Shown: piece after piece, positions 22,495 through 49,479 of the stretch
How the letters are laid out: every line of letters begins with the position of its first letter
How positions within the stretch are numbered: the first letter of the stretch is position 1
From: Aliarcobacter butzleri
Lineage (GTDB): Bacteria > Campylobacterota > Campylobacteria > Campylobacterales > Arcobacteraceae
DNA length: 64,000 nt
Assembly: GCF_900187115.1 (NCBI RefSeq)
Contig: NZ_LT906455.1
Location: forward strand, 1,302,001-1,366,000
Direction of reading: 5' to 3'
The notes under the pieces: model-generated
What the model saw: only the letters and a program-made list of their open reading frames with translations
What the model was told of the DNA's origin: nothing
The model's database searches: none
Program-made: the position numbers and the translations under genes

Positions 22495-22578
22495 GCCGCT
22501 ATGGTGAAATTGGTAGACACAAGGGATTCAAAATCCCTCGCCTTTGGTGTGTCGGTTCGAGTCCGACTAGCGGTACCA
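22495..22578 (+). tRNA. tRNA-Leu (anticodon CAA)
   Basis: An 84-nt class II tRNA with CCA encoded. The acceptor strands GCCGCTA and TAGCGGT pair with a terminal G-U. The anticodon stem AGGGA/TCCCT encloses TTCAAAA, giving anticodon CAA (reads UUG). The long variable arm and the T loop GGTTCGAGTCC are present. Its 3' 20 bases are part of the element's attachment site. Integration left this copy intact, with the displaced 3' fragment at 49458. Confidence 0.97.
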
Positions 22579-22580
22579 CT
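22559..22580 (+). repeat. attL core (left 22-bp direct repeat)
   Basis: The block running from GAGTCC to ACCACT covers the T-arm end, acceptor strand and CCA of tRNA-Leu plus two bases. An identical copy is at 49458-49479 and flanking bases diverge at once on both sides. It is the crossover site of the neighbouring integrase. Confidence 0.92.
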
Positions 22581-28786: not shown

Positions 28787-30826
28787 TCATAATCCAGATA
28801 TAATCTTTTTACTGAATGGTGACAAATTATCAAAAAGTGCTATTTCCATTAATTTCTTTAACTTTTTTTCAGTTCCAAAAACATCATTATATTTACTTAT
28901 CTCGTTGGATATAAGAATAATGTCTTCCTGAGGTATACCTAAATCACTTAATATACGCTCATATCCATCTGCTGAATCAAAGTAAGATTCTATCATGTAA
29001 ATACTTTGAATAAATGCTCTATTTTTTGATTTGTTGAATAAATTCTTGCTATTAAATAATTCATAAATACCAACCATCTTCATCATTTTAAACTTTATAA
29101 ATTCATCTATTTGAAAAAGAGCATCAATAAAATTATTGATATCACTAACATTAGGATTATATTTTATTACGAATTTATTAATAACAGGTTTTAACTTACC
29201 TCCATTAATCATTAATGAATATACTGCATCAAAAATAAATTTATCTTCAGAAGCAAATGAGTAATTACTTGTTAATAAACCTCCTAAATATTTATTATCG
29301 CTTCGAAGGAGCTTGTATTTTATATCATTAATAACTTTCCATTCTTTTTCATGGCAGGTTATTTCATCATAAATATTGATAAAATTGTTAAGTAAATTAA
29401 TTTCAATTTCTGATTCGATAACCTCTGTCATTTTAATTCCAAATTTTGAGTCCAAAATTTCTTTTAAATCATGAATTCTTTTTTCTGGTTCACCATCTAT
29501 TGAAGATTTATCTAAATATAAAATCTCGTCCTCAGGACTATTAGTTTCTATTGTATCTACTTCATACAAAATCTTAAGGTCTATCCACTGCTCTGGATTA
29601 TAAAGGTCAAGTATTTTCTCATCAAATATTTGGATATTTCCTATTTGGGGATTCTGTGGATTTAAACGACCAACTCTGCCAATAAGATTATTCAATTCAA
29701 ATGTTCCACGTGGCGAATCATAAATTATTAGTTTATTTGTAGGCGTATTGATACCCTCCATTAATGTACTTGTACATAATATTGTATGGATACAACCATC
29801 AGGATTAGAATATTCATTTTCAATATATTTTCTTAGAAATAAGGGTGTTTTCCCATGATGAATGCCTATCCCCTTTTTTAAATAAATAGAATAGTACCAT
29901 TCAGGATGAATATTTTCAGATATCCATTGAATTATATCTTCATCATATTTGTATTGTTCATCTTCAGTATTTAATTCGTTTTTATCGAGGAATTTTTTTA
30001 TATTATTAGGAGAATTGAAGTATACGAATTGTTTATCTTTTAAAAATTCTAAATTATCAATAGTTTTAACAGGCTGTTTTTCAATGTTATTATAAACAAG
30101 ATTTAAATTTGTAATGAACTGCTCAATTTTTATATTACTCTTACCAAAATTTACACTCCTAATAAATGGTCCAAGTAACAATATCTTGCGTGATTTATTT
30201 ATTAAGTATTTATAGATATAATTCATTTTAATTATTCTGTCATTCGTATCTCTTGAAGATATTTCATACTTAAGTTTATAGATTTCGTCATATACTAGGA
30301 AATCGATATTATTGCTATTTATATATTCCTTAAATCTTTTTGTACTAATTCGTTCAGGTACTACAATCATGATTTTTTTAGCGACATGATTATATTGATC
30401 AAGTTCAGCTTCGGATGTAATTATAATAAATTCATCATTGAATAAATTAAAACACTTTCTACGTAACTCATTCATAAGAGATATTGTGGGAACAACAAAT
30501 ATAATATTTTCCAATAAAATACGATTTCGTGCTATAAACTCTAAAGCAATAAATGTTTTCCCAAAACTTGTTGGGGCACTTAAGAATAAATTATTCTCTT
30601 CTAATATATTTAAGCATTCAACTTGTTCATTTGTTAGAGTTATGCTATCATCTAATACAGACCTTTTTATCACATTACTCAATTTTGAAAAAAAAGTGTT
30701 GTTTCTTGAGTATATTGATAGATCGGTAAGATTCAACTCAGCCTCTGATATGTCATTACCACTATAAATATTCTTGAGGATATCATTCCTTAAAACATTC
30801 ATATTTGAATCAAATTTATTATGCAT
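28787..30826 (-). CDS. hamB: Hachiman defence helicase HamB
   Basis: Superfamily 2 helicase of 679 residues, partner of the HamA nuclease in the Hachiman anti-phage system. In family terms HamB surveys DNA and restrains HamA until damaged or phage DNA is met. Visible motifs are the Q-like LTNEQVECLNILEENN, Walker A SAPTSFGKT (about 87-95), Walker B LVYDEIYKL, motif III-like LLLGPFIRS, GIGIHHGKTPLFLR, motif V CTSTLMEGINTPTNK and motif VI LIGRVGRLN. The C-terminal 300 residues are helical. Its start overlaps the hamA stop by 8 bases, so the pair is translationally coupled. Confidence 0.85.
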   Translation of the reverse strand: MHNKFDSNMNVLRNDILKNIYSGNDISEAELNLTDLSIYSRNNTFFSKLSNVIKRSVLDDSITLTNEQVECLNILEENNLFLSAPTSFGKTFIALEFIARNRILLENIIFVVPTISLMNELRRKCFNLFNDEFIIITSEAELDQYNHVAKKIMIVVPERISTKRFKEYINSNNIDFLVYDEIYKLKYEISSRDTNDRIIKMNYIYKYLINKSRKILLLGPFIRSVNFGKSNIKIEQFITNLNLVYNNIEKQPVKTIDNLEFLKDKQFVYFNSPNNIKKFLDKNELNTEDEQYKYDEDIIQWISENIHPEWYYSIYLKKGIGIHHGKTPLFLRKYIENEYSNPDGCIHTILCTSTLMEGINTPTNKLIIYDSPRGTFELNNLIGRVGRLNPQNPQIGNIQIFDEKILDLYNPEQWIDLKILYEVDTIETNSPEDEILYLDKSSIDGEPEKRIHDLKEILDSKFGIKMTEVIESEIEINLLNNFINIYDEITCHEKEWKVINDIKYKLLRSDNKYLGGLLTSNYSFASEDKFIFDAVYSLMINGGKLKPVINKFVIKYNPNVSDINNFIDALFQIDEFIKFKMMKMVGIYELFNSKNLFNKSKNRAFIQSIYMIESYFDSADGYERILSDLGIPQEDIILISNEISKYNDVFGTEKKLKKLMEIALFDNLSPFSKKIISGL

Positions 30827-31991
30827 TTAATTCCTTCCATATATTATTGCTTTTTACAGAAAAGGAATTGAGATAATCTTGTTTGCTAATTATTGGCAAA
30901 ACAAATAAGAGGATATTATAATCCTTTTTTAACTTTGTTAATTTTTTATTCTTTCTAATAACATCTAAAATGTCTTCATAGTCTGTATAATCATCACAAA
31001 TTAAAAATAGAACCAAATTTTCTGTTACATTTTCATCTATTTCAATTATTTCATTTAGTTCATCAGTCTTAATATTTCTGAATAATTCAATTTTATGTGT
31101 AATGTTTTCCTCACAAACTTCATTATGGGCTTTAAGTGATTTAACAGCCCGATTAACTGCACTATCCAAATCACTGAAAAACTTTGCTTCCAAATAATAT
31201 ATTTCTTTTGTATCTTCAATGTATATAGTACCATCATTGCCATATACTGGCATTTTTGGAGATGTTTTAAATACTAGTTTTGGATAAATGTACTTTTTAA
31301 CTGATTTGTCAGATAAAAATTTACTTAGCATAATATGCATAAGAAATTCTCCAATGTCTCCATGTAAAGTAGTATGGGATGTATCAACACCTGTATTAGA
31401 TATAAATCCAATGCTTTTCAATGCATCGAAATATTTTTGCTTCTTTTGCTTATCAGTGTATTTTGTTTTTGGTGTATAGGTACTAGCCACTTTAAGTACA
31501 TTTTCAGTATTGAAAATTTTGTTATTGATTTCATTAAATAATAGTTCGTTCATATCAAATAGTTCTTCCCAACTGAAAAACTTCATTCTTATTTTATTTA
31601 AATCATCCTCTTTTTTATTATTAATAAAATCTTTCTCATAACCTTCTATCGTCAGCACTCTATAAAATGATTTTTTATCATATGTGTTATTTGACTTTAA
31701 GCCCAATTCTTCACAGATAGTATTTATTGTGTATTCAGATACAGATGAATACTGATAATTACTTGTAGTTTCATTATATGAAATATTACATACAGCATAC
31801 TCAGTTTGCTGTGCATCTCCATCGAAGTAACTAACAACAAAAAAAAGATGATTTTGTGTTCTATTATATCTATTATAAAAATCAGATACATTTTTAATTC
31901 TTTCTTCAATAGTGAAATTATAGGTTCCTCTTCTGGAAAATAATTTAAATACTGTATGCTGTATTGTGTAATGTATTAAGACTTTCATCAT
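30819..31991 (-). CDS. hamA: Hachiman defence nuclease HamA (DUF1837)
   Basis: The 390-residue effector of Hachiman. An N-terminal part of about 190 residues of unknown fold precedes the DUF1837 nuclease core: HGDIGEFLMHIML (Glu helix), PVYGNDGTIYI (catalytic Asp), YYLEAKFFSDL (E-x-K). These fit the PD-(D/E)XK site known in HamA. It is first in a two-gene unit with hamB, the usual order. The frame begins ATGATG (31991); the second ATG is equally well placed after AAAGGT. Established: HamA degrades DNA when released by HamB. Inferred: that this copy is active. Confidence 0.83.
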   Translation of the reverse strand: MMKVLIHYTIQHTVFKLFSRRGTYNFTIEERIKNVSDFYNRYNRTQNHLFFVVSYFDGDAQQTEYAVCNISYNETTSNYQYSSVSEYTINTICEELGLKSNNTYDKKSFYRVLTIEGYEKDFINNKKEDDLNKIRMKFFSWEELFDMNELLFNEINNKIFNTENVLKVASTYTPKTKYTDKQKKQKYFDALKSIGFISNTGVDTSHTTLHGDIGEFLMHIMLSKFLSDKSVKKYIYPKLVFKTSPKMPVYGNDGTIYIEDTKEIYYLEAKFFSDLDSAVNRAVKSLKAHNEVCEENITHKIELFRNIKTDELNEIIEIDENVTENLVLFLICDDYTDYEDILDVIRKNKKLTKLKKDYNILLFVLPIISKQDYLNSFSVKSNNIWKELNA

Positions 31992-32741: not shown

Positions 32742-32896
32742 TAATTCACCTTTTATAAATTATTATCATATATAATCAATCTTATATAAAATATACTCTA
32801 GTATTATATAGTATTATTAAAATAAAATCAATCAATATAAAGTATAATATAGTATTAATAAAAAATATTTAATCAGGTAATGACATAAAATATTTA

Positions 32897-32941
32897 AGCA
32901 ATAAATTGCTACAATATTTTAATGTCTAAGCTATATGCTTA
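32897..32941. other. Tandem palindromes, candidate oriT
   Basis: AGCAATAAATTGCT (32897-32910) and TAAGCTATATGCTTA (32927-32941) form two small hairpins 30 bp apart, 33 bp before the relaxase-like ATG. Short inverted repeats next to a relaxase and its accessory gene are typical of transfer origins; no nic consensus could be assigned. Confidence 0.4.
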
Positions 32942-32973
32942 ACTATCGTCAAGCTTTTTTTTAAAGGAGTATT

Positions 32974-34617: not shown

Positions 34618-34690
34618 TTAAATTTTAATTATTAAAAAATTTATTATTTATGTTGTGTGTAATATAATTTACATAACACAAGGAGTAGTA

Positions 34691-35887
34691 ATGGCAAAAA
34701 TTGATGAAGAACTAATAAAAACTAAATTAAAAGAAATAGAAAAATTTTATAATCAAATTAAAGATTATTATTCTATAAAAATAGATTTACTTAAATCTAA
34801 TGAAAATGAAGCTTTAAGAAATATCTTTGAAAATGAAATAGAATTACTAAAAGAAAATTCAGAACAAGCCTTAAATATATTAAGTAATGCAAAACAATTG
34901 GAAAATTTTTTAAATGAAAATAATAAATTACAAAATATAAAAAATCTTTTATCAAATGAAAATATTAATGAGATTGAAAATAGAAAGAATGAGATTTTAT
35001 CTGCATATTCAAAAATATTTGAAACAAAAGATGGTAATTTAAGTCAAATTTTCAATGATATGTATGAACAAATAAAAAATTCATATAATGATTTATTTGT
35101 TAATAAAACGGGAGAAAAAGTAAAAATTGAAATATTAAATGCACATATTGATAAATTTGAAGATAAATATGCATCAATAATTTCTGATGAAAAATCAATA
35201 AGTAATGAAATAGAAACTTTGCATAAAGATTTAAAAATTAAGCAACAAAATTTAGATACATTCCATAAAAAAATATTTGGAGATGATGAAGAGCCAGAAG
35301 AGGGAGAAGATAAAAGTAAGTCATTAAAAGATGAACTAGAATTAAGATTAGAACAATTAAAGGAAACAGAAAAGGAAGCAAAAAAAATAATAAATTTATC
35401 AAGTGATGCTGGATTAGGAGGAGGTTTTAATCAAAAGGCTAAAGAAGCAAAGAATAATAAATATTGGAGTTTAGCTGTTTTTGTTCTTGTACTAATTATA
35501 ATGGGATATTTTAACTTTAAAACAATAGATTTTAATAATTTAAAAGATATTGATTTAGTTTCTATTACTGTAAGATTTATGATAAATGCCCCTTTTATTT
35601 GGATAGCAACTGTTGCAAACCTAAACTTAAATAAATATGCAAGACTAGAACAAGAATATTCTCATAAAGAATCATTGGCAAAATCTTTTGAAAGATATAA
35701 AACAGAAATAGAAAAACTTGATGATACTGAAACAATAAAATCTAAAGAATTGCTGGTTCAATTGATGAGTTTAAATTTAGAAGCTTTCAAAATCAATCCA
35801 TCTTCAACTATGGATGGAGCAAAAAGTGATATTGATTACTTTGAAAAAATAAAAAATCTTATTTTGACAAATAAAACTTCATCTTAA
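34691..35887 (+). CDS. Coiled-coil membrane protein of unknown function
   Basis: A 398-residue protein. About 240 residues of charged, probably coiled-coil helix are followed by an acidic stretch (GDDEEPEEGEDK), a glycine turn (SSDAGLGGGFNQKAKEAK) and two membrane helices (about 260-276 and 292-314). The cytosolic end begins NKYARLEQEYSHKESLAKSF, a pattern I have seen only in unnamed proteins of mobile elements. A frame opens at 34655, but the ATG at 34691 has CAAGGAG at the right distance. It follows the relaxase-like gene in the same direction and may be coupled to transfer. Confidence 0.6.
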   Translation: MAKIDEELIKTKLKEIEKFYNQIKDYYSIKIDLLKSNENEALRNIFENEIELLKENSEQALNILSNAKQLENFLNENNKLQNIKNLLSNENINEIENRKNEILSAYSKIFETKDGNLSQIFNDMYEQIKNSYNDLFVNKTGEKVKIEILNAHIDKFEDKYASIISDEKSISNEIETLHKDLKIKQQNLDTFHKKIFGDDEEPEEGEDKSKSLKDELELRLEQLKETEKEAKKIINLSSDAGLGGGFNQKAKEAKNNKYWSLAVFVLVLIIMGYFNFKTIDFNNLKDIDLVSITVRFMINAPFIWIATVANLNLNKYARLEQEYSHKESLAKSFERYKTEIEKLDDTETIKSKELLVQLMSLNLEAFKINPSSTMDGAKSDIDYFEKIKNLILTNKTSS

Positions 35888-35992: not shown

Positions 35993-36130
35993 TTATAAAT
36001 AAGAATTTACTTTTGTTAAAATCTTTAACCAAAATCTTCTTGTTTTTTTTATATCTTGTGAATCATCTTTTAACTCAATGTCTAAATATTGAATTGCTTC
36101 ATCTAAATTATTTTTTATTTTTTCTCTCAT
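35993..36130 (-). CDS. Small hypothetical protein (45 residues)
   Basis: A 45-codon frame starting MREKIKNNLDEAIQYLDIEL with a perfect AAAGGAG seven bases before the ATG. It is charged and helical with a C-terminal RRFWLKILTKVNSYL, possibly membrane-associated. It is the last gene of the long minus-strand run, 33 bases after the DotA/TraY-like gene. The evidence is the ribosome binding site and codon pattern only. Confidence 0.5.
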   Translation of the reverse strand: MREKIKNNLDEAIQYLDIELKDDSQDIKKTRRFWLKILTKVNSYL

Positions 36131-36162: not shown

Positions 36163-39045
36163 TTAAATTCTTGCTCCACCTAATGATTGAACTCTTTCAC
36201 CTAATTGATGTAATAATCCACTCTCTGTCTCATCTTTATATTTGATTTTAGCCAATATCATATCATCACCTTTTAGGATAATAAAATAAGCTAAAATCAT
36301 TCCTATAAAATATATGAATACATCAGAGAAACCAGTTATAACACTTTGTGTTACAAAAGATAAAGAAATACTTGAATCTTCATATAATGAATTCGATAAA
36401 TTTAATGTAGAAAAATTTATATCAAATATTAATGAGTAAATGCCAGTAATAATCTCGAAACTAATAATAAACATGAAAAAAGAACTAACTATTAGGGTAG
36501 GCTTAATCACATAAAGTATGAAACCATCCAGAAAATAAGAATTTACCCTATCTGTTTTTTCTTTGATTGTCATTTGCCAAAGTACTATAAATGGTGACAC
36601 AAAAAAGTACATAAAACAATCCCAAAAATATAAACCTATTTTTAATATAGCTAATAGTGTCACAACAGCTGCAAAGATAGCCTGTATCATAAGTTTATAT
36701 AGAATAACTGCTAATGAAAATGACGTAACATAAATCATAAATGACTTGAAACCAGTACTTAAAAAATCTATGCTTCGAGAAACTTTACTGTTATCTTTTA
36801 GATTTTTTTTAGATTTTTGTTCATTTGCTTCTTTTATGAATTTATCCAACGATGACTTAGCGAAAGATAACAGTTTACTTTGTGGCATAAATATACCTGC
36901 AACTTCAAATAAAGATTCTCCTGCACCTTCAACTGCTTTTTCAAAAAATTGTCTAATTTCACCAAAGAATGGCAACATATTATATATTTGATATGAAGTC
37001 AATGTAGAGAAAGTATTTGTAATCCAGTTGCTCGTAACTGAGCTTAAAACTTCAGTATCAAGTGTTTGTTTAGATAAATTTTCATCTTCTTTTACATACA
37101 AATCATTAGCTTTATTTACTAACATTGTAGTTACTGCTTCACCATTTGTTGTTCTTGATAATCCATCATAAGCATTATTTATAATATTTGAGTTTAGCAT
37201 AAATATATGACTTACAGGAAGTGTTGAAGCCATAAACCAACCAACGTTTTTAACACCTAAAAGCTGAGTATCTACATATAATTGACTCATTGAAGTATAT
37301 GAACTATTATTAGTTGTAACATTAAAATTTGAATTCCTAGATAAATTAGTAATAGTTTTTTCTGATGTAACTTTACTTCTTTTTAAATACTCTCTACCTA
37401 TCATTAAACTAATTTCTAAATTTTTACACATCAAAGGAGAAATTGTACCTTTGTTATCAAAAATTTTACTGCTTCCAGTATCTACATTCCAAAGGAAATC
37501 AATGTGAGAATCAGCCATTTGAAAGCCATTATATTTTTTATAACTTGCTTCATGAGAAGATATACAATTATCTTTAAAGAATGATTGAAGTACAGCTTGT
37601 TCTACAATTTCTCTTCTAGTTTGATTAAGAATATTTAATGTGTCTTGATAGCTTTGTGTATACGTTGCATTAAATAAATATCTCATGTAAATAACTGTTG
37701 CATTTGTAGCAGTAGTATCAGCTATCATTGCTCCCATATTAGCAAAAAATCCAATTCCAGTTTTAAATATGGTTGTTTGAGATTCTACTTGTGTAGCTTG
37801 ATTATTATTAGAGGTAGTTATTTCAAATATTTTATCACTTTGATTATTATTTGAAACCACTGATTCTGAATTCCCATTTGGAAAATGGATAAAAAATACT
37901 ACTAACATAATTACAATAGCAGTTAATCTATTTGCAAAAGGAAAATCCCATTCTTTACCTTCATTGTTACTATTCATTCTAAACATAAAAAATTTATATC
38001 CAACAACAACACCACTATATAAAAAAACCATAGCAAGAATTAATAGCCCTGCATAATCAAAAACAGCTTGCCAACCAAGAGACATAAATTCATAATATAA
38101 TCCAAAAATCTTTTTATCAAAATATTGTTCAAAACTAAATACTCTAGTATAATTTACATTATCAACTTGACCACCAGTCATATTATTATAAACTTTTGAT
38201 ACTTTATCCCTAAAGGTTTCCCATACTCCTTTACTATATTCAACAGAATCAAGAATTGTCATATTTTTTTCAACTTCAGTATTTATGATAATATCTCCAG
38301 TTTCACTTATTCCTGATACAACATTACCATCTAAAGCTACTAAACCAGTTACAAATTGCGATACTGTAAAATTTTCTTTATCTTTATTTTCATTCAAATA
38401 TTGTAAGCCCAAATCTTTTGCTCTTTTTTGTATATTGTAAGGGTTTGTAATTAAACTATGTGTATCATCTGTATTATTTCCTAATGTAAATATCTTTTTA
38501 CCCAATCTTTTAGTTAATTCCCAAGGTGTTTCATAGTGATTATAATCTGGTAGTACACTAAGATTTGAAGGCTTATACTCACCATTAAATAAATTATATA
38601 TATCATCTATTTGGAAAGGAATATTAACAAGGCTTGAACCTGATTTTGTGCTATCAATATAACCTAACAACAAAGTCCAATTTGGTATTGAAAGAGTTAT
38701 TGATTTACTAGCATCAGCACCAAATTCTTTTTCATTTATATAAGAACAAGTAAAAGTCCCCTCTTTATAGTTAAAGTCAATTAGATATTTTTGAGCTTCA
38801 ACTCTTGTTTCTGATTTTATATTTTCATTTTCATCGTAAACAAATTTATATAAATCTTTACATATTGGAGTGCTAGTATTAAAATTTAAGGATTCTGAAG
38901 TTGCTCCTTTAATTATAGTAACTCCCATTTTATCATCTAGTAAAGAGCTTCTATTTTCTGTTTGATATCTTATTATCTCTGCACCCATACCATTTTCTAA
39001 AAATAAAATAGTAAATAAAAATATATGTAATATATACTTTTTCAT
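36163..39045 (-). CDS. DotA/TraY-like polytopic membrane protein
   Basis: A 960-residue protein with a signal peptide (MKKYILHIFLFTILFLENGMG), a large periplasmic domain (about 23-325), two membrane helices (about 328-350 and 372-388), a further periplasmic-type region with weak hydrophobic patches, and a C-terminal cluster of five to six helices (about 763-925). The helix pair with FYFW-type aromatics and FVSPFIVLWQMTIKEK, then DGFILYVIKPTLIV, resembles the C-terminal membrane part of DotA/TraY (type IVB secretion, IncI transfer). The call is by topology, not by proven similarity; a TraG-like mating-pair protein is the main alternative. ATG follows the stop of the next upstream gene by one base. 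Confidence 0.45.
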   Translation of the reverse strand: MKKYILHIFLFTILFLENGMGAEIIRYQTENRSSLLDDKMGVTIIKGATSESLNFNTSTPICKDLYKFVYDENENIKSETRVEAQKYLIDFNYKEGTFTCSYINEKEFGADASKSITLSIPNWTLLLGYIDSTKSGSSLVNIPFQIDDIYNLFNGEYKPSNLSVLPDYNHYETPWELTKRLGKKIFTLGNNTDDTHSLITNPYNIQKRAKDLGLQYLNENKDKENFTVSQFVTGLVALDGNVVSGISETGDIIINTEVEKNMTILDSVEYSKGVWETFRDKVSKVYNNMTGGQVDNVNYTRVFSFEQYFDKKIFGLYYEFMSLGWQAVFDYAGLLILAMVFLYSGVVVGYKFFMFRMNSNNEGKEWDFPFANRLTAIVIMLVVFFIHFPNGNSESVVSNNNQSDKIFEITTSNNNQATQVESQTTIFKTGIGFFANMGAMIADTTATNATVIYMRYLFNATYTQSYQDTLNILNQTRREIVEQAVLQSFFKDNCISSHEASYKKYNGFQMADSHIDFLWNVDTGSSKIFDNKGTISPLMCKNLEISLMIGREYLKRSKVTSEKTITNLSRNSNFNVTTNNSSYTSMSQLYVDTQLLGVKNVGWFMASTLPVSHIFMLNSNIINNAYDGLSRTTNGEAVTTMLVNKANDLYVKEDENLSKQTLDTEVLSSVTSNWITNTFSTLTSYQIYNMLPFFGEIRQFFEKAVEGAGESLFEVAGIFMPQSKLLSFAKSSLDKFIKEANEQKSKKNLKDNSKVSRSIDFLSTGFKSFMIYVTSFSLAVILYKLMIQAIFAAVVTLLAILKIGLYFWDCFMYFFVSPFIVLWQMTIKEKTDRVNSYFLDGFILYVIKPTLIVSSFFMFIISFEIITGIYSLIFDINFSTLNLSNSLYEDSSISLSFVTQSVITGFSDVFIYFIGMILAYFIILKGDDMILAKIKYKDETESGLLHQLGERVQSLGGARI

Positions 39046-39046
39046 T

Positions 39047-39349
39047 TTAGCTCTTTTGGTAGTCGCTAAGAAGATTCATAAACAATAAATCATTTATAGC
39101 AAAATTTTTATTTTTGATATTTTTAAATTTCAAAGCTTCTGAAAAAAATATCAAATCATTCAAACCAATATTGAGCTTTTTAGCAACTAAACCTAGCATA
39201 ACTACTTCATACTTGGTTGGATTTGCTATTTTTAAGTTATTCAAACTTGAAGCTGAAAGATTCTTTACATCGTTTGTTAAATCAGTAGTTTTTTTTGCTC
39301 CAATTTTTTTAGCAATTTCTGGAGCACTTAATAAAGATAAATCATCCAT
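39047..39349 (-). CDS. Hypothetical protein
   Basis: A 100-residue soluble helical protein (LSLLSAPEIAKKIGAKKT at the start, KYEVVMLGLVAKKLNIGLNDLIFFSEAL in the middle). No family recognised. It is one base from the start of the DotA/TraY-like gene and 22 bases from the tail-anchored gene upstream, so it is part of the same operon. Confidence 0.6.
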   Translation of the reverse strand: MDDLSLLSAPEIAKKIGAKKTTDLTNDVKNLSASSLNNLKIANPTKYEVVMLGLVAKKLNIGLNDLIFFSEALKFKNIKNKNFAINDLLFMNLLSDYQKS

Positions 39350-39371
39350 TTTTTACATCCTTTATTTTATA

Positions 39372-39725
39372 TCACTTAAAGAATAATGCAAAAAGTAAAA
39401 AGGTAATAACTATCATCAGATAGACAACTTTATTATTGTTTTTTGTTTTTTGATTATTCAACATTTTTTCAAACTCTATTTCAAACTCTTCCATTGATTT
39501 TGAGATACGAGCATTAATTTCAAGTTCACTTTGAGAGTTTAATTTTGCTTTTTGTTCACTTGCTTGTAAGAGAATTATCTCTTGAAGCTCTTCCATAATC
39601 TCAAATATATCTTTGATTTTTGATTCATAAATATCAAGCTTTGAGACAACTTGTTTAATTATCTCATCGCCTAAAGCTTCATGTAAAACTTCTAAGTTAT
39701 CTCTCTTTTTCTCTTGAGTACTCAT
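39372..39725 (-). CDS. Tail-anchored coiled-coil protein
   Basis: A 117-residue protein: a coiled coil for most of its length (VSKLDIYESKIKDIFEIM onward) and one membrane helix at the very C-terminus (VVYLMIVITFLLFALFF). Two in-frame ATGs lie six bases apart at 39731 and 39725; AAGGA leaves almost no space to the first, so the second is chosen. The start overlaps the upstream gene by 29 bases. The build is like that of the 133-residue protein at 45146. Confidence 0.6.
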   Translation of the reverse strand: MSTQEKKRDNLEVLHEALGDEIIKQVVSKLDIYESKIKDIFEIMEELQEIILLQASEQKAKLNSQSELEINARISKSMEEFEIEFEKMLNNQKTKNNNKVVYLMIVITFLLFALFFK

Positions 39726-40182
39726 GCTCATTTCCTTTTATATTTTCTGATATATCTTGAGAATTTAAATATCTTTCAAATTTCTTATCATCAAAAATAT
39801 CGTAAATATTATTACTATCTAAAAACTCTCTTAAATCAAGATTTTCAGCCTGTTCGATAATATTAATTCTTTCTTGCATTTGCTCAAAGAAATCATTAAG
39901 TAACTTATCCTTTTGAGTTGTTATTTCATTTTGGTTTTCTAATTTTTCTAGTTCTTTTTTACTTATTTGTTTTTTTGTCAAATAATAGATATCAACTAAA
40001 GCCATCAACCCAAAAATATCATGGTTAGAATTTTGAATCTCTTTTAATTTAGATGAGAAAGTTTTATAATCTTCATCTTTTTTATCTATCTCTTTTAAAA
40101 GTTGTTTTTTTGATTCTCTTGTTCGTTCTTGCATATCTTTGATTTTTTGTATAAAATCTATTTTTTTCGCATTTGTTATCAT
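39697..40182 (-). CDS. Hypothetical coiled-coil protein
   Basis: A 161-residue soluble, strongly charged protein with a coiled coil (KIDFIQKIKDMQERTRESKK onward) and an acidic C-terminal end. A frame runs upstream to 40233 but would overlap the previous gene by 50 bases; the ATG at 40182 has AAAGGA upstream and leaves a one-base gap. No family recognised. It lies in the transfer-like operon. Confidence 0.6.
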   Translation of the reverse strand: MITNAKKIDFIQKIKDMQERTRESKKQLLKEIDKKDEDYKTFSSKLKEIQNSNHDIFGLMALVDIYYLTKKQISKKELEKLENQNEITTQKDKLLNDFFEQMQERINIIEQAENLDLREFLDSNNIYDIFDDKKFERYLNSQDISENIKGNEHEYSREKER

Positions 40183-40183
40183 T

Positions 40184-40693
40184 TTACAATCCTTTCTCTC
40201 TCCATCTTTGTCGTCTGACTCGTTCTTTTTCATCTTCTATTTCTGTATAAGTTCTATAGCTTTGTAATTTCTCTTCTTTTTGAACTTCTAAATCATTTCC
40301 GTTAATAAAACTTTTAATGGTTGCTATTTCTCTTTTTAGTTTTGCTAGTTCATCAACCTTACGGTCTAAAGCTTCAAGTTTTTCCCTATGTAAAGCTAGA
40401 AAATTTAAACCTTTTTGTTCATTAACTCCTAAGAATTCACCTTTAGCATATTTTTCTTCAAATTCTTTATACTCCTGTTTTAAATTATATTGAGTACCAT
40501 AAACAGCTTTTTTTAGTCCATCTTCTTTGAATTCTTTTGTAAGAATTAAAAAATCTAAATCTACACCTCTTTGTTGTAATTTATGTAGGTCTAAAAATTC
40601 CCTTGCTGTTCCATATTGACCCTTTCCAAACCATCTTTTAACTTTTTCTTTAATTTGCTCCCAAGGGCTTAGTTTAAGCATTTCTTTTGACAT
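40184..40693 (-). CDS. Hypothetical protein
   Basis: A 169-residue soluble basic protein. The start (LSPWEQIKEKVKRWFGKGQYG) is amphipathic, the centre helical, and the end a coiled coil of arginine-rich heptads (DEKERVRRQRWREKG). AGGAG precedes the ATG, and the coupling-protein-like gene stops one base upstream. A role as partner of that ATPase is suggested by position alone. Confidence 0.6.
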   Translation of the reverse strand: MSKEMLKLSPWEQIKEKVKRWFGKGQYGTAREFLDLHKLQQRGVDLDFLILTKEFKEDGLKKAVYGTQYNLKQEYKEFEEKYAKGEFLGVNEQKGLNFLALHREKLEALDRKVDELAKLKREIATIKSFINGNDLEVQKEEKLQSYRTYTEIEDEKERVRRQRWREKGL

Positions 40694-40694
40694 T

Positions 40695-42770
40695 TTAAAC
40701 TCCTAGTTCAATTTGTTTTTTTCTGATAACATCAACATCTACATATCTACTTAACACAACATCATCTTTTGCAGTTTTATATAAACTTTTTTGCATCATA
40801 TACTTAGCCATAAATGGTGTTGCCGTAGAGTTTCTAATTATGTAACCCTCTCCATTTTTAATATTACTTAGCATTTCAGGTTTAAAAAAATCCTCTTCAC
40901 TTTTAGTTAGTTTTGAATCTTCATTGTTATGAAATTTTTTGAGATTCTTTTCTCTTTTCATACTCTCTTCAAGTGTGATTTTTTCTACTTTTTGCACTTT
41001 AGAGTTAAGAAGTTTTATAAGTTCTACATCTTCTAATTTTAAACTTATTATTGTTTTTACATTAGCAATGATTTGACTATTATCAACAGAACCCATAGTT
41101 TCTTTTAAATCACTTTGAAAACTTAAAACTGCTCCCATATGTAAACCTCTAATAACTGATAATAAATCTCCAATTTGATAGCTTTGATTTTTTTTCGTTT
41201 TTAGCCAACTATTAATCTCATCAAGTATTACAAGTGTTGTAGTATCAGGAATAAAATCTTTTCCTCTTCTTTCAGCTAATAAATTTAAAGTTGAAACTAA
41301 AAGTTCAGCTAAAATTGGGCTATATATTTTATTTTGTCCAGGAAGATTTACAATAACTATTTTATTGCTATCTATAGCATCTAAGATATTTAAATCACTA
41401 TTTATATTTTTTAAAATGGGTGCAAAAGAATCAAAAAAATTAACTATCTTGTCCATTAAACCTTGAGCTACTGATAAATCATAAAATGTACCACTTCTTT
41501 GTGGATATTTTAGACCTACTGCTTCAATACCTGTAATAGTAGTTCCATTTTCTGTTACTACTCCATTTAAATATGTTTCTTTTAATTTTTCCCAATCTGG
41601 TACATTTGAAAGCATAATTACAACATTCTTTAACTCATTATGAAATTGGTTTTTTACACTATTATCTAAATGAGATAATGAGCTATTATTCTTACTTTCA
41701 TCCTCAATTATTTTTATGAAATTTTCATATAATTTTGAATTAATTTCATTTCTATTTGTCTCGTAAATTTCATCAAAAACTAGTAAAAATTTTAAGAGTA
41801 AATCTGTTTCGCTCATTAGTCTATTAAATGAGAAATAATCAAGTTTTATTAAATATTTTTGATACTCTTTAAACTTATTAGTTGAATTAAATACTTTGTC
41901 AATTTTTGAGATATCTAAAAAGAAATTTGCATCTCTAAGAGTTAAGATAACCTTTAGTAGTGAAGACAAATAAAGCTTTGCTTTTCCATTCCATCCACCC
42001 TCATCATTTCCATCTAAATCAGCAATACTAGTTAGCATGGTAATAATATCTTTTGAAGCACCTAGCTCAAATAGGTTTATTGTATTTGAATTAAATTTTC
42101 CTCTTTTATCCGCATTAAAATCAAAAATTAATAAATCAGACAATCTATTGTAAGTTGCACAAATGGACTGCACTCTTTGAAGCATAACATTATCTGCTTT
42201 TCCAAAAATTGCAAATACTCCTGCACCTCTTGATATACTTGATTCTATATATGCATTTAAAAGTAATTCAGTTTTTCCACCACCTGATGTTGCCATTAAA
42301 GCACAATGTTCTCTTAGAATTACATCATCAATTAAAACTGGAGTAATTGCATTACTTTTACTTGAAGTTCTTTTTTGTGATGGAATTATTTTTTGAACTT
42401 CATAATCAAGTGAGAAAAATTTTCTAACTTGATTGTAAAAAGTTAAAACATCGACATCTTTTTTATGTCTTTTTACAAGTGTTCCTAAATGTACACTATA
42501 CTTATTTTTTAAATTATCATTATTTAAGAGGGATAACTCCTTTATCTTTTTATTTTTATTTCTTAATAAGTTTTTTTGAAATTTAAAAGAGAAAAAATAG
42601 ATAAAAAGTGCAAATGCAAAAAAATGTATTTTTAAACTTATTGAAAAAACAAAAAATAAAATTAACCAAATATAACTTGACCAAAAAACATCATCAATTA
42701 ATTTTTCTTCATTATCGTCAAGCTTTGTGTAAGTGTTGATTCTTATTTTATCGTTTATATTATTTTCCAT
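40695..42770 (-). CDS. Type IV coupling-protein-like ATPase (VirD4/TraD/DotL class)
   Basis: A 691-residue membrane-anchored ATPase. Two membrane helices (about 30-62) precede a linker, then Walker A ALMATSGGGKTELL (about 158-170). The motif FDFNADKRGKFNSNTINLFE resembles the substrate-plasmid region of TraD/DotL proteins. Walker B TTLVILDEINSW is near 510-520, followed by a glutamine sensor in GAVLSFQSDL. This is the hexameric motor that hands DNA-relaxase complexes to a secretion channel. It has no VirB4 neighbour. It could serve an incoming helper channel or a channel not recognised here. Confidence 0.8.
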   Translation of the reverse strand: MENNINDKIRINTYTKLDDNEEKLIDDVFWSSYIWLILFFVFSISLKIHFFAFALFIYFFSFKFQKNLLRNKNKKIKELSLLNNDNLKNKYSVHLGTLVKRHKKDVDVLTFYNQVRKFFSLDYEVQKIIPSQKRTSSKSNAITPVLIDDVILREHCALMATSGGGKTELLLNAYIESSISRGAGVFAIFGKADNVMLQRVQSICATYNRLSDLLIFDFNADKRGKFNSNTINLFELGASKDIITMLTSIADLDGNDEGGWNGKAKLYLSSLLKVILTLRDANFFLDISKIDKVFNSTNKFKEYQKYLIKLDYFSFNRLMSETDLLLKFLLVFDEIYETNRNEINSKLYENFIKIIEDESKNNSSLSHLDNSVKNQFHNELKNVVIMLSNVPDWEKLKETYLNGVVTENGTTITGIEAVGLKYPQRSGTFYDLSVAQGLMDKIVNFFDSFAPILKNINSDLNILDAIDSNKIVIVNLPGQNKIYSPILAELLVSTLNLLAERRGKDFIPDTTTLVILDEINSWLKTKKNQSYQIGDLLSVIRGLHMGAVLSFQSDLKETMGSVDNSQIIANVKTIISLKLEDVELIKLLNSKVQKVEKITLEESMKREKNLKKFHNNEDSKLTKSEEDFFKPEMLSNIKNGEGYIIRNSTATPFMAKYMMQKSLYKTAKDDVVLSRYVDVDVIRKKQIELGV

Positions 42771-42771
42771 T

Positions 42772-43614
42772 TTATACCTCTTTAATATAATAAAGTGCGT
42801 GTTTAAGGCTTAGACTAGAATACTTATCATGAGAGAAATCTCTCAAGAAATTTAAAAACTCTGTTTCATCTGGCGTTGCTATTTGAAAAAGTTGTGAAAT
42901 ACCTGAAAAATATTGGTTTTCCTTGAAAATTTCAAACTTTGAAAGAATTAAAAGCTTTAGAGTTTTTATACTTGTTATCTCTTCTAAATCTTCATCTGAA
43001 ATTTTTTGATAATCAAAAATATCAGCTTTTTCATTAATATAATCAATTAATTTTGAGTAAAACTGTGTTATTTCAACTGATTTATTTTGAAGTTCTTCAA
43101 ACTCTTGTATATCGGCTTTTGAGATATTTATTACAACATTTTGGATAGTAAAATCTTTTGGGCTATAATCATAAGTTATTCCACTATAAAAATGTGCATA
43201 ATCTTTTATCTTTTTTACAACTCTTTGAATCGGGGAAAGATTAAAAGGAGTATCTTGATTAAGTTTTACTACTCTTTCATCTACTAACTCTAATTTTTTG
43301 TTATAGAAAAAGTTAATTATTAAAAAAACCAATCCAATGATTGCAAAAACTTGAAATTTAAAAACACTCTCTGTTCTATCAATACTATCTCGGAATTCTT
43401 CAAAAGTAAGAGTTAAAATGTGATTCAAGCCCATAGAAATAGCAATTAAAACAACTAATATAACCCCTTGTTTTACAACAAAATTATTTCTATTTGAACG
43501 TTGAAAGTTAGTTAGCTTTTTATATTTTGTGAGTCCCCAAAGCATAGTAACTAGTATAATCATTGAAGCGAAAAAAATGTAATAAAAAATTACTCTATCA
43601 GTCATAAGTTCCAT
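42772..43614 (-). CDS. Membrane protein with three N-terminal helices, next to coupling ATPase
   Basis: A 280-residue protein with three membrane helices (about 9-28, 48-66, 87-104) and a cytoplasmic C-terminal domain of about 170 residues. In IncI and Dot/Icm systems the coupling ATPase (TrbC/DotL) lies beside a protein with the same topology (TrbA/DotM), and the order and spacing here fit that (one base between the genes). Sequence motifs of DotM are not seen, so the link is an inference from layout. Confidence 0.5.
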   Translation of the reverse strand: MELMTDRVIFYYIFFASMIILVTMLWGLTKYKKLTNFQRSNRNNFVVKQGVILVVLIAISMGLNHILTLTFEEFRDSIDRTESVFKFQVFAIIGLVFLIINFFYNKKLELVDERVVKLNQDTPFNLSPIQRVVKKIKDYAHFYSGITYDYSPKDFTIQNVVINISKADIQEFEELQNKSVEITQFYSKLIDYINEKADIFDYQKISDEDLEEITSIKTLKLLILSKFEIFKENQYFSGISQLFQIATPDETEFLNFLRDFSHDKYSSLSLKHALYYIKEV

Positions 43615-44538
43615 TTATCTCTCCTTCATATTGTTATCGTATGTAATTTTATTTTTAACACTTACCATTTTTTGAGCTTTTTCAACTTCTTTTTGTAAAA
43701 AATTATCAAAATCTTGAGCATAACTAACAATAGTCTTCAAGTCGAATTGAGTAGCTTTAAATGCTTTTAGGTTTCCTATATTTTTTGAAAAATCATCCAG
43801 CGTTTTTCCTTCAACATCTTTCATACTCAAGTCTCGAAGAAACTTAATATCATCTCTTATTGATTTATTTTCTTTTTGCTTTTCTACTACATTTTTATCT
43901 TGAATTTTTGAATTCTTTGTATCTGATTCAAACTCTTTTTTTGTATTTTGAGTCTTGTTTTTTAAGGCTTCTATCTTGTCTTTTACTGTTTTATTCTCTT
44001 TTTCAAGTCCTGATTTTTCGGCAGTTAATTTTTCTTTTTCCAAAATTAACTCTAACTCTTTTTTAAGCTCAAGATTCTCTTTTTTTAAGTTTTCTACTGC
44101 TGATTTTAGATTTAAAATATCTTTCTCAAGTTCATCAAATAGTTTTTCTTTGTCGCTTTGATTCAAGTTAGAATTAGAAGATAAATCATCAATTTTTATT
44201 TCAATCTTTTCTGTTTCTTCTTTAACTTTTGATTTTTCAGTTTCAATTCTTTCTACTTTTTGAGCTTGAGTAGAAAAAACATCCTGAGACTGAGAAAAAC
44301 TAGAGTTTAATTTTGAGCTTTGGTTGTAAATTTTTTGTAAAAAATCATCATTCTCTTTTTTCTCTTTTTCTTCAATTTTCAAATCTTTTTCATTGATTTT
44401 TTTTAATTCTTCATTTTTTAAGAATTCACCAGTTTTTAAAGTTAGGATTTTAAATTTTTGGAGATTTATCTTTTTTTGGAGTTTGTTTAGCTCATCCTCA
44501 TTTTCTATTATTTTTTTCGCAATATCATTGTAACTCAT
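43615..44538 (-). CDS. Long coiled-coil protein
   Basis: A 307-residue protein dominated by heptad-repeat helix (about 1-220; Lys, Glu and Leu rich), with a short less-charged C-terminus (RDLSMKDVEGKTLDDF, then FDNFLQKEVEKAQKMV). No catalytic motif. It directly abuts the three-helix membrane protein. Structural roles such as a tether or chaperone are possible, but the sequence gives none. Confidence 0.55.
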   Translation of the reverse strand: MSYNDIAKKIIENEDELNKLQKKINLQKFKILTLKTGEFLKNEELKKINEKDLKIEEKEKKENDDFLQKIYNQSSKLNSSFSQSQDVFSTQAQKVERIETEKSKVKEETEKIEIKIDDLSSNSNLNQSDKEKLFDELEKDILNLKSAVENLKKENLELKKELELILEKEKLTAEKSGLEKENKTVKDKIEALKNKTQNTKKEFESDTKNSKIQDKNVVEKQKENKSIRDDIKFLRDLSMKDVEGKTLDDFSKNIGNLKAFKATQFDLKTIVSYAQDFDNFLQKEVEKAQKMVSVKNKITYDNNMKER

Positions 44539-44681
44539 TGTTTAGTCCTTTGTTCTAAAATTATTATATTTCGATTTTATCTTTATAAGTTTTTTTTGCT
44601 ATGAATTTTCATTTTTTTATATTTTTTTAAAAAAATTAATTTAAATTAATAATAGTATTTCAATTGTGAAGTACTATTTCC

Positions 44682-45134
44682 TTATTTTTTTTCAAATTCA
44701 TATTCATATCTGAATGTGAAATTTAGTTGTCTCACATTAAGATATAATCCTAATTGGAACATATCCCGATAAGTACCAGATTTTATGAATTTTCTAATTG
44801 CAATAGAGTTTAAATCGAAAAATGCAGGATTATTTTTTGAAATAAAAATAAATTTATAATCTTCAAATTCATCATCTATATCTGTTTTATCTATTATTTT
44901 TCTTGCGATTCTCTCCTTATTCGTAGTATCAAGAAAGGTTTTTAGACTTTGAAAAAAATCATCAATTACGATGATTTTTGCATTTTTATCTATGAGAAAA
45001 CAAATAACATCCTCTTCCTTTGTTTCTGGAACAAAAACTTTTACAATATCCTTTTTTAAATTTACATCTTTATCTATTTCATTTTTTAGAAATTCATTAA
45101 AAAACTCTTCTATCTTTTTATCTTTTTTTTTCAT
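44682..45134 (-). CDS. Hypothetical protein
   Basis: A 150-residue soluble protein, acidic, alternating predicted helix and strand (VKVFVPETKEEDVICFLI, IIVIDDFFQSLKTFL, FKFIFISKNNPAFF by type). No family recognised. It is followed by a 140-base AT-rich gap before the coiled-coil gene, so a promoter might lie there. It is 11 bases after the tail-anchored gene. Confidence 0.55.
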   Translation of the reverse strand: MKKKDKKIEEFFNEFLKNEIDKDVNLKKDIVKVFVPETKEEDVICFLIDKNAKIIVIDDFFQSLKTFLDTTNKERIARKIIDKTDIDDEFEDYKFIFISKNNPAFFDLNSIAIRKFIKSGTYRDMFQLGLYLNVRQLNFTFRYEYEFEKK

Positions 45135-45145
45135 TATTTAGTCCT

Positions 45146-45547
45146 TTATTTCAAAATTATAAAATTGATTCCAGTTGTTATAACTGCAACAATTGCTGTA
45201 ACTTTCACAACCGATAAACTAACTAGCTTATTGCTTATATTTATAATTCTTTCTATTTTCTTTAAATCTTGATTTTTATTTAAATCTTCTATTTTTTGGG
45301 CTAAAAACGATAAATAAACAGAGTAGTTTTTTATCATTTCATTTTCATCTTGAAATTGAAATTTTTGGATTATTTCAAGGTAAACTTCCATTTTTTCGGC
45401 TAGTTGCTTTTGCTTATCTTGTATCTCTTGCAATTTTTCAATTTTATTTGTGATTTTTTCGAGTTTTTGCAAATAGATTGATTTTTGAAAATCAAAAGAA
45501 TCCATCAGTTCATTTACTTCTTTTTCATCTAAAACAATTTTGCTCAT
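45146..45547 (-). CDS. Tail-anchored coiled-coil protein
   Basis: A 133-residue protein: coiled coil (about 15-110; LQKLEKITNKIEKLQEIQDK) and a C-terminal membrane helix (about 112-132, VKVTAIVAVITTGINFIIL). Nine bases separate it from the ParA-like gene upstream. Together with the ATPase it could form a membrane-positioned partner, as adaptor proteins do for ParA/MinD-type ATPases (inference). Confidence 0.58.
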   Translation of the reverse strand: MSKIVLDEKEVNELMDSFDFQKSIYLQKLEKITNKIEKLQEIQDKQKQLAEKMEVYLEIIQKFQFQDENEMIKNYSVYLSFLAQKIEDLNKNQDLKKIERIINISNKLVSLSVVKVTAIVAVITTGINFIILK

Positions 45548-45556
45548 AAAAAAACC

Positions 45557-46348
45557 TTACAGTGCTTTTTTAAGTGGTTCTAGTTGAGTGATTAACTCCA
45601 CTACCATTTTTGCAAATCGATATCTTTTATTGTTTGTTTTAAATACCTCTTGCCCTTCTTTAATCCACTCTTGACGATAAGTATCAATATTTTGGATTAA
45701 ATCAAGTGAAGATATATAGCTATCAAGTAGACTTACTTTGTAATGAGATTTTAAGATTGAGAATATATTTGAGTTAGGAACAAAAAAGATATTATCTACT
45801 TTTAAATTATCAAGTTGATTTGCTATATCCAAATCATCTGAGCCAAAGATATTTATAAATTGTTTTTGAATCTCATCTTTATCAAGTGAAAAACATCTAT
45901 TAATAACTAGATTTATTGTTGCAGATTTATCAAAATCTAAAATTAAAGAAATCGTATCTCTTACATTATCAACTTGCTCCATATCATCATTTACGGGGAT
46001 ATAATAGTTTAATCCTGATAAGTCTATTTCTTTTAGTTTATGCAGTACTATTTTTGTGTCATTACCACCACCTGCATCTATTATATTAACTACACTACCA
46101 TCTGACAAACTAGAAAATTGTATATCATCAATCACAACCTCACTATCTTTAAGTTTTAAGCTTTGATGATTTATGTAGTTTGAATTTACCTTACTGTTAT
46201 TGTTGTCATCAATCTCAAAAAGATTTATTTTTTGATTTTGATTTTGCAAATATAACAATGTAGCAGTTACTCCTGCTATTGTTGTTTTACCTGCACCACC
46301 TTTAGTTTGTACAATTACGTGTATATTTGGCTTATTTTCTTTTTTCAT
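45557..46348 (-). CDS. ParA/MinD-family ATPase
   Basis: A 263-residue P-loop ATPase of the deviant-Walker class: IVQTKGGAGKTTIAG (about 12-26) holds the signature lysine. VVNIIDAGGGNDT is Walker B-like, and LNYYIPVNDDMEQVDNVRDT matches the switch region. ParA-type proteins dimerise on ATP and position plasmids, chromosomes or membrane machines. No ParB or parS repeat is visible. The gene order suggests either segregation of the excised circle or placement of a transfer machine. Confidence 0.75.
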   Translation of the reverse strand: MKKENKPNIHVIVQTKGGAGKTTIAGVTATLLYLQNQNQKINLFEIDDNNNSKVNSNYINHQSLKLKDSEVVIDDIQFSSLSDGSVVNIIDAGGGNDTKIVLHKLKEIDLSGLNYYIPVNDDMEQVDNVRDTISLILDFDKSATINLVINRCFSLDKDEIQKQFINIFGSDDLDIANQLDNLKVDNIFFVPNSNIFSILKSHYKVSLLDSYISSLDLIQNIDTYRQEWIKEGQEVFKTNNKRYRFAKMVVELITQLEPLKKAL

Positions 46349-46527: not shown

Positions 46528-47166
46528 TTAAATCAAAATTTCATTTTCTTTTATTGAAGATGCAAGATTTTCCAATTTCTTAATTTTTAAATCTTTTGAT
46601 ATTTGTTTATTCAAAAGCTGTTGATTTAATTGCTCAAATTTTTCTGCCTCATTTTCAGAAAAAGATTTTATTTCTTTTTCTTTATTTTTCTTTTCTTTTA
46701 TTTGCTTAGCATTTGTTGAACATTCGCTTAGCATTTGCTCACTTGAGTCATTAATACTCAAGTTTATTTGAAGTTGTTTCAATTGCTCTAGTTGTTTTTG
46801 TTTACGCTTTTGAGCTCCAATTTTTGCAGATAGAACTCTTTGTTCTCGCACTTCTTCCATTTTTTGCATACGACGATTTAAACTACTTGAGTAGAAAAAG
46901 CAATCATCTTCAATTACAAATAGATGATAATTTCTTACAACAACTTCAAGTTTTGCTAATGTTGTATTATATTTTCTAGCTAATACTGACAATAGTTTGA
47001 GTGGATATTTATAGTTTTGTTGTTCCCGTAAAGTTTCAATCAATACCCAAAATATTCCGTAGCCTTCTAGTCCAAGTTCTTCAATTAAAAGCATTACTTT
47101 AAAGTCATCTTTTGCATTTGCATCATGACTAAAGTAACAAGTTTCTTTTTTTGCATTTGCACTCAT
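46528..47166 (-). CDS. DUF4373 (Lin1244/Lin1753-like) protein
   Basis: A 212-residue protein. The N-terminal 100 residues match the DUF4373 pattern: YFSHDANAKDDFKVMLLIEELGLEGYGIFWVLIETL. Proteins of this kind occur at replication regions of phages and integrative elements and often carry a winged-helix DNA-binding domain. The C-terminus is charged and low in complexity. It is next to the ParA-like gene with the GC-rich island between them, as if forming a replication/maintenance module of the excised circle. Confidence 0.7.
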   Translation of the reverse strand: MSANAKKETCYFSHDANAKDDFKVMLLIEELGLEGYGIFWVLIETLREQQNYKYPLKLLSVLARKYNTTLAKLEVVVRNYHLFVIEDDCFFYSSSLNRRMQKMEEVREQRVLSAKIGAQKRKQKQLEQLKQLQINLSINDSSEQMLSECSTNAKQIKEKKNKEKEIKSFSENEAEKFEQLNQQLLNKQISKDLKIKKLENLASSIKENEILI

Positions 47167-47243: not shown

Positions 47244-47477
47244 TTAATTCTCTCTCTTTTGACTGTTTGGCGACATAAAAGAGGGAGTTTTATTTCTTAC
47301 TTCTTTTTGTTTTTGAATCCAATCTTGTAACTCATTATTACTATATAGGTCTATTTGAGTATTTGGAAGCCTCACAGGTTTGATAAAATCACCACTATTG
47401 ATTATGTCATATAGTTTATTTCTCCCTATTTTGAGTATTTTAAGAATATCTGGTTTTTTTAATAACGTATCACTCAT
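47244..47477 (-). CDS. Small HTH protein (AlpA/excisionase-like)
   Basis: A 77-residue protein with the winged-helix pattern of AlpA and excisionases: LKKPDILKILKIGRNKLYDIINSG, then DFIKPVRLP and LYSNNELQDWIQKQK. Such proteins bend att DNA for excision or switch on integrase. It lies 11 bases from a second protein of similar type, and both are near attR. Confidence 0.75.
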   Translation of the reverse strand: MSDTLLKKPDILKILKIGRNKLYDIINSGDFIKPVRLPNTQIDLYSNNELQDWIQKQKEVRNKTPSFMSPNSQKREN

Positions 47478-48931: not shown

Positions 48932-49384
48932 ATGGAAATAAATGACATAATTGATAAATTATTTGATTATTTTAAGGTTACTTCAATTCAAGATTTAGCA
49001 GAAAAAATGAATGTCTCTCAACCGACCATATCAAAATGGAAAACACGAAATGCTATGAGTGCGATTAAAAAAAGATGCCGTGAACTAGGTATCTATAATG
49101 AAATATTTGGAGATTTGAATAGTAATACTATTATTAATATTGCTTCAGAAGTAAATCAGGCGATAAAAGAAAAAAATGAAGTAGATATCGATGAAACAAC
49201 GCTATTTTTGTTTAAAGAAGCGTATCAAAAAGCAAAAAATAGCGATAACATTAAAGGATTAAGAATTTATTTAATGGAATTTGAAGCAAAAACAGAGCCT
49301 TTTGAAATAGTAGAAAAAATAACATTGAAAGATTTAGAAAATATAGTAGAAAATATGATAGAAAAAAAGAAAAGTATACATTAA
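48932..49384 (+). CDS. CI-like phage-type repressor
   Basis: A 150-residue regulator with an N-terminal helix-turn-helix of the phage CI repressor type: LFDYFKVTSIQDLAEKMNVSQPTISKWKTRNAMSA, followed by RRELGIYNEIFG-type residues. The C-terminal part is helical and has no self-cleavage protease, unlike LexA-linked repressors. It reads opposite to the 48599 operon from a region with TATG-N-CATA palindromes. It probably keeps excision and transfer genes off, as in other integrated elements. Confidence 0.78.
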   Translation: MEINDIIDKLFDYFKVTSIQDLAEKMNVSQPTISKWKTRNAMSAIKKRCRELGIYNEIFGDLNSNTIINIASEVNQAIKEKNEVDIDETTLFLFKEAYQKAKNSDNIKGLRIYLMEFEAKTEPFEIVEKITLKDLENIVENMIEKKKSIH

Positions 49385-49457: not shown

Positions 49458-49479
49458 GAGTCCGACTAGCGGTACCACT
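49458..49479 (+). repeat. attR core (right 22-bp direct repeat)
   Basis: Identical to the 22-bp left copy. Upstream bases do not continue the tRNA, so this is the displaced tRNA 3' end left by integration, not a second gene. Confidence 0.92.

Follow-up and report, generated by a model that had tools for sequence, protein, structure and literature searches.

TrbL is, like the TraG protein of SGI1, a VirB6-class protein, and the carriage of these proteins by GIsul2 and SGI1 already hinted that islands relying on a helper retain a VirB6-class component of the mating apparatus. SGI1 is an integrative island that carries TraN, TraH, and TraG and uses IncC plasmids as helpers. Its TraG takes the place of the helper TraG and disables entry exclusion (PMC5389848), and the island, which is of the F-type, contains neither a relaxase nor a coupling protein (PMC5704250). 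GIsul2 is listed with a few mating-pore genes, TrbJ, TrbK, and TrbL (PMC5704250); its parts are T-type, its helper is a proposed one, and no coupling protein is listed for it. Among the I-type systems, DotA together with IcmX lines or forms the central channel (PMC12981334, PMC12857230), and ExcA of the IncI plasmids interacts with TraY (PMC8923210). Here we describe a 26.9-kb integrative element within a 64,000-nucleotide stretch of the Aliarcobacter butzleri genome (contig NZ_LT906455.1, positions 1,302,001 to 1,366,000; "the window"). Like SGI1, this element has an inner-membrane subunit of the VirB6 class and is probably helper-dependent, but its parts are of the I-type and it has a coupling protein of its own and a candidate nickase, and for SGI1 the helper is known.

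The element (positions 22559-49479 of the window) is complete, with 22-bp direct repeats at both ends, one of them at the 3' end of a tRNA-Leu gene. The longest other match of this tRNA-Leu in the window was 10 bases. As in an integrative and mobilizable element, site-specific integration (the repeat ends and the element's own tyrosine integrase) is combined with an incomplete mating-pair formation system, no core gene of the type IV machine being recognized in the element by Pfam or NCBIfam. The TraU/DotO ATPase and core complex genes of an I-type mating-pair formation system (MPF_I) are missing from it, and DotO is also absent from the genome. Searches with PF03135, PF19044, and a DotO profile built from Campylobacterota sequences detected no VirB4-class ATPase in this genome or in three genomes with related elements (G015, G018, and G029). 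PF12293 (DotH) matched nothing anywhere, controls included, and was not used as evidence. The initial annotation of the window had noted the missing assembly ATPases, and had proposed either that the element remodels the machine of a helper or that its proteins form a reduced apparatus; no resident helper was found, as these profiles detected neither VirB4 nor DotO in the host.

The gene run at positions 46348 to 36163 is probably the transfer operon of an integrative and mobilizable element that depends on a helper but supplies its own coupling complex and a VirB6-class channel subunit. Helper dependence is the best supported reading because the bounded element is complete without core genes, because its coupling protein is of the DotL/TrbC type, and because orphan DotA genes recur on relaxase-bearing islands (below).

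By its sequence, the ATPase of the operon is a member of the TrbC/DotL family of coupling proteins, as the initial annotation had suspected. It matched NF041447 at 3.8e-14, under the full-length cut-off of that model, a single sequence query of the PDB returned DotL/IcmO at 1.2e-11, and comparison with IncI TrbC by hhalign gave 98.8%. The 960-residue polytopic protein shows moderate similarity to TraY at the profile level. A 29-sequence profile of its family aligned with IncI TraY over the C-terminal membrane region (hhalign, E = 3.5e-4, probability 37%); unrelated polytopic membrane proteins used as controls scored below it, and the single high-scoring control (from G042) proved to be DotA-like itself. 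An NCBIfam search with this protein gave no match. Its topology agrees with the DotA/TraY-like description first given to it, with a hydrophobic N terminus, judged by eye, and six strong hydrophobic helices. IncM TraY has seven helices and a signal peptide, and IncM TrbA has three helices (PMC6112013). Three N-terminal helices are likewise predicted for the product of the gene upstream of and beside that of the coupling protein, the place held by TrbA. Position and helix count thus make it a candidate DotM/TrbA counterpart, as first proposed, but profile comparison with IncI TrbA and a search of PDB chains revealed no sequence similarity, and its single-sequence AlphaFold model was poor (pLDDT 44.6). 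PDB searches with the DotA-like, DotM-position, and candidate nickase profiles returned chance-level matches only.

The set resembles TraY/TrbA/TrbC of R64-like IncI plasmids and DotA/DotM/DotL of Dot/Icm in its coupling protein, its TraY profile match, and its three-helix protein in the TrbA/DotM position. It differs from both in the absence of TraU/DotO, TraJ/DotB, and core genes, and in a DotM homology that is undetectable by sequence. The same DotA-like family, at 19-22% identity, occurs on the Campylobacterota plasmids pICON and pBRAN1 and on a Caminibacter pacificus plasmid, and pBRAN1 also has a related coupling protein. DotO-like and AAA ATPases, which the window element lacks, are also encoded on pBRAN1 and on the Caminibacter plasmid; DotO was not identified in the pICON stretch examined. 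The Campylobacter plasmid pBRAN1 also contains a single 11.3-kb gene annotated as DNA polymerase (NZ_CP059601.1:33673-44976).

A coupling protein and a DotA-like protein, both nearly full-length, were found in three further genomes of the genus (G015, G018, and G029), with two copies in G018, so that the set, which the initial annotation had suggested seeking elsewhere, recurs in four more elements. All five share the operon genes in the same order and the 547-residue candidate nickase, and they differ in integrase, cargo, and the gene flanking DotA; the first operon position in G029 and G015 is occupied by a different ParA-like protein. The ends of three relatives were mapped: G029 has repeats of 24 bp, G015 of 31 bp, and the second G018 copy, which lies at another tRNA-Leu, of 26 bp, and the elements measure 24-29 kb. 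Across the core, the ratio of nonsynonymous to synonymous substitution (dN/dS) was mostly 0.08-0.3, with synonymous distances reaching about 1. The coupling protein had values of 0.09-0.13, the DotA-like protein 0.11-0.19, the DotM-position protein 0.11-0.17, and the candidate nickase 0.12-0.24. The core set is under purifying selection and, as it recurs in four other elements with low dN/dS, the gene run is far more than a chance arrangement. When the coupling protein, the DotA-like protein, and the nickase candidate were used to scan collections of viral and genome contigs, no relative appeared.

Among 299 related genomes, the DotA-like profile matched in 26 and a clear DotO was present in seven, six genomes having both. 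For DotO the three best candidates of each genome were scored, and true matches lay far above the remainder; about 24 genomes gave weak matches (∼1e-4 to 1e-8), which were taken to be other ATPases. Orphan DotA genes lie beside a TrwC/MOBF relaxase and a TrwB-type coupling protein in G231 (tested with Pfam) and, by similarity, in G281, G211, and G209; the orphan gene of G013 has a NikA-like neighbor. DotA islands that contain an integrase also occur in G071, G087, and G290. Several of these other island families thus combine an integrase, a relaxase, and DotA and have no VirB4. None of the 12 such or related genomes tested contained PF03135, and the other VirB4/TraC-type ATPase (PF19044) was found in G209 and, within the genus, in G013 and G028. 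On a tree of DotA-like proteins the island label requires at least 6 changes, a number equally low in 15 of 500 shuffles, and islands are nested beside differing complete systems. Long branches make single joins unsure, above all that of the window's own lineage, and the label leans on gene absence in some draft genomes. DotA/TraY, the I-type counterpart of TraG and TrbL, sits on islands with different relaxases, and since the tree mixes islands with complete systems this combination appears to have originated more than once.

Three observations on these neighborhoods are recorded separately. By eye, the DotA neighborhood of G251 resembles the TrwC/TrwB islands. The NikA/DotA island of G013 directly adjoins a conjugation cluster of the VirB4 type, and the two may have inserted in tandem (C1:1260001-1284000; L096, L097). 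In G107 a DotA-like gene adjoins a repeat array accompanied by Cas9-, Cas1-, and Cas2-like open reading frames (ORFs), again judged by eye (C43, L058).

The HxH then YxxK motif order is that of the Rep-type HUH enzymes, and the 547-residue protein common to the five elements has a conserved EPHFH followed by YYHLKK. A Pfam search with it gave no match. Its single-sequence AlphaFold model was of low confidence (pLDDT 53.7); the succession of alpha and beta elements in it would be compatible with an HUH domain. Directly upstream of its gene, a block of ∼95 bp is almost unchanged among the elements and the surrounding intergenic DNA has diverged; this block, with its inverted repeats, is a candidate origin of transfer.

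From this gene content we infer the following course. The element would excise from tRNA-Leu, and the HUH-like protein would introduce a nick in the conserved block that immediately precedes its own gene. The element's DotL/TrbC-type ATPase, the three-helix partner, and the small coiled-coil proteins would then load the DNA onto the machine of another, I-type (IncI/Dot-Icm-like) element, in which the DotA/TraY-like protein may take the place of the helper's central inner-membrane channel subunit. Such a channel swap, as with SGI1 TraG, would favor the element over its helper and could let it escape the helper's entry exclusion, the target of which in IncI is TraY.

Several findings weigh against this scheme. 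The DotO profile revealed no DotO-bearing helper in any of 31 genomes from the genus, which leaves the helper-remodeling proposal of the initial annotation without its partner there; a single genome of the family (G092) holds DotO, and PF03135 VirB4 is present in 5 of the 31. The nickase is recognized from its motifs, and because fold searches with its model gave nothing significant the HUH assignment depends on them. Single-sequence comparisons tie the DotA-like protein to TraY weakly. It is also only ∼22% identical to any counterpart from a complete system, versus 37% between the TraG proteins of SGI1 and its helper, so that it is not evident how it would replace the subunit of any known helper.

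The absence of I-type DotO from all hosts of the core set, together with the defense cargo (Hachiman in the window, PDC-S49 in G029), would also suit an anti-conjugation defense standing beside the anti-phage systems, in which the coupling and DotA-like proteins, as dominant-negative components, would obstruct or poison I-type plasmids on arrival. We regard this as unlikely: neither a nickase nor a conserved site in cis nor a coupling complex would be needed for blocking, and interference is also an expected outcome if the element parasitizes helper machines.

Decay of the operon in an element that was once conjugative and lost its core genes is a more doubtful explanation still. The coupling protein gene of G015 is broken by stop codons, the candidate nickase gene of the first G018 copy is split by an insertion element, and in G008 a C-terminal piece of DotA stands alone. 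Nevertheless, the window, G029, and one of the G018 copies have the same set intact, at a dN/dS of about 0.1-0.2 and synonymous distances of up to about 1, and ongoing movement is suggested by the defined ends and by the exchange of integrases and cargo.

That the coupling ATPase, its partner, the DotA-like channel, and the small coiled-coil proteins move DNA by themselves, the other proposal of the initial annotation, found no positive support and is very unlikely. In its favor, DotA-like genes often occur with neither DotO nor VirB4, most of their hosts have no VirB4 at all, and G125 has DotM-position and coupling genes without DotO. No operon product looks fit to span the cell wall or the outer membrane, though, and related islands pair the same DotA-like part with unrelated relaxases and coupling proteins, which is better explained by plugging into a machine. 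Just as improbable is the wider form of this idea, in which the coupling complex and DotA-like protein are a minimal DNA conduit without VirB4/DotO, pilus, or outer-membrane ring, used by orphan-DotA islands across the order.

Least probable of all is export of a protein instead of DNA. The candidate would be the coiled-coil protein whose gene immediately precedes those of the coupling complex; its C-terminal half is conserved, and its N-terminal parts are swapped and primase-like in two cases. IncI plasmids, however, carry primases into recipients along with the DNA, so that primase carriage fits DNA transfer too, and no effector-like domain was found.

For the helper-dependent transfer operon, this coiled-coil protein would possibly travel along with the DNA. 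Its conserved part ends in an NKITY-like motif, and the relatives with a Toprim primase-like N terminus are the second G018 copy and G028 (C69). G028 has two diverged DotA-like genes, one of them beside primase-fusion, DotM-position, and coupling genes, and a primase similar to this type of N terminus occurs alone in its VirB4-bearing cluster. If a channel subunit is what a parasite of conjugation must bring, the swapped subunit, the escape from exclusion, and the helper plasmids become testable, and the scheme suggests how a set of Campylobacterota defense islands moves. Islands with a few machine parts are already known; a literature search that covered few subscription journals found no earlier report of an I-type island with its own coupling protein and DotA, or of its recurrence in Campylobacterota, and both appear to be new.

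The gene run was confirmed as 11 ORFs on the minus strand, with a conserved twelfth beyond them. The gaps of 1-30 bases initially given for it were inexact: spacing is 0-22 bases, with two overlaps (-50 and -35), 32 bases ahead of the 45-residue ORF, and a single gap of 143 bases (44539-44681). The two tail-anchored coiled-coil proteins, the long coiled-coil protein (recognized by composition), and the ParA-like ATPase (with weak E-values) were all recovered as first described. The features of the element are collected in Table 1.

Table 1. Features of the integrative element, in order of position in the window
Feature	Position	Strand	Basis or remark
attL, 22-bp direct repeat GAGTCCGACTAGCGGTACCACT	22559..22580	+	3' end of tRNA-Leu(caa) 22495-22578
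Tyrosine integrase with Arm-DNA-bind_3 domain	22757..23974	+	PF13356 9e-24, PF00589 4.9e-19
Cargo, PIN_12 domain protein	27228..28310	+	PF16289 3.3e-33
Cargo, HamB helicase, Hachiman defense	28787..30826	-	1e-71
Cargo, HamA, Hachiman defense	30819..31991	-	PF08878 1.1e-28 and defense-model match
Candidate accessory DNA-binding protein, 109 residues	32412..32741	-	Divergent from nickase gene; homologue in same place in both G018 copies; function suggested by position
Candidate origin of transfer/nick site, ∼95-bp block	32870..32970	+	Inverted repeats AGCAAT-AA-ATTGCT and TAAGC-TATAT-GCTTA; putative function
Candidate HUH nickase/relaxase, 547 residues	32974..34617	+	Conserved EPHFH (HxH), then YYHLKK (YxxK)
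Coiled-coil membrane protein, candidate exclusion or cargo gene	34655..35887	+	Position held by differing membrane proteins elsewhere; putative function
Conserved ORF, 45 residues, last gene of operon	35993..36130	-	Conservation
DotA/TraY-like (VirB6-class) polytopic channel protein, 960 residues	36163..39045	-	Profile and topology
Soluble protein, 100 residues, conserved in all elements	39047..39349	-	dN/dS 0.20 with closest, 0.42-0.48 with others
Tail-anchored coiled-coil protein, 119 residues	39372..39731	-	90-95% identity among elements; conservation and helix prediction
Coiled-coil protein, 178 residues	39697..40233	-	Weak similarity to 45146 product; sequence comparison
Soluble protein, 169 residues, immediately downstream of coupling protein	40184..40693	-	Conservation
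Coupling ATPase, TrbC/DotL family	40695..42770	-	Two N-terminal helices, Walker A GGGKT; profile and PDB match
Three-helix membrane protein in DotM/TrbA position	42772..43614	-	Position and helices
Coiled-coil protein, conserved C-terminal part, exchangeable N terminus	43615..44538	-	Composition; comparison among elements
Soluble protein, 150 residues, conserved	44682..45134	-	Comparison among elements
Tail-anchored coiled-coil protein, 133 residues	45146..45547	-	Helix prediction and conservation
ParA-like ATPase, first gene of operon	45557..46348	-	Weak E-values
Lin1244-type replication-initiation-like protein	46528..47166	-	PF14297 3.4e-15; phrog_2562 9.5e-22
AlpA-like regulator	47244..47477	-	Profile search
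CI-type repressor	48932..49384	+	PF07022 5e-06; homologues in both G018 copies
attR, second copy of 22-bp repeat	49458..49479	+	Repeat match

Between DotA and the candidate nickase gene, where the window has a coiled-coil membrane protein, unrelated membrane proteins (pentapeptide with helices, or multi-helix) are found at loci L022, L024, L028, and L031. Exclusion genes often lie beside DotA, and these variable genes are candidates for exclusion or defense.

Two cargo proteins fell outside the defense models of PADLOC. One is the PIN_12 protein of the window. The other, from the second G018 copy (L027:14213-19027), is a 1604-residue protein with matches to FtsZ/tubulin and uracil-DNA-glycosylase domains and weak matches to HEPN/RES domains.

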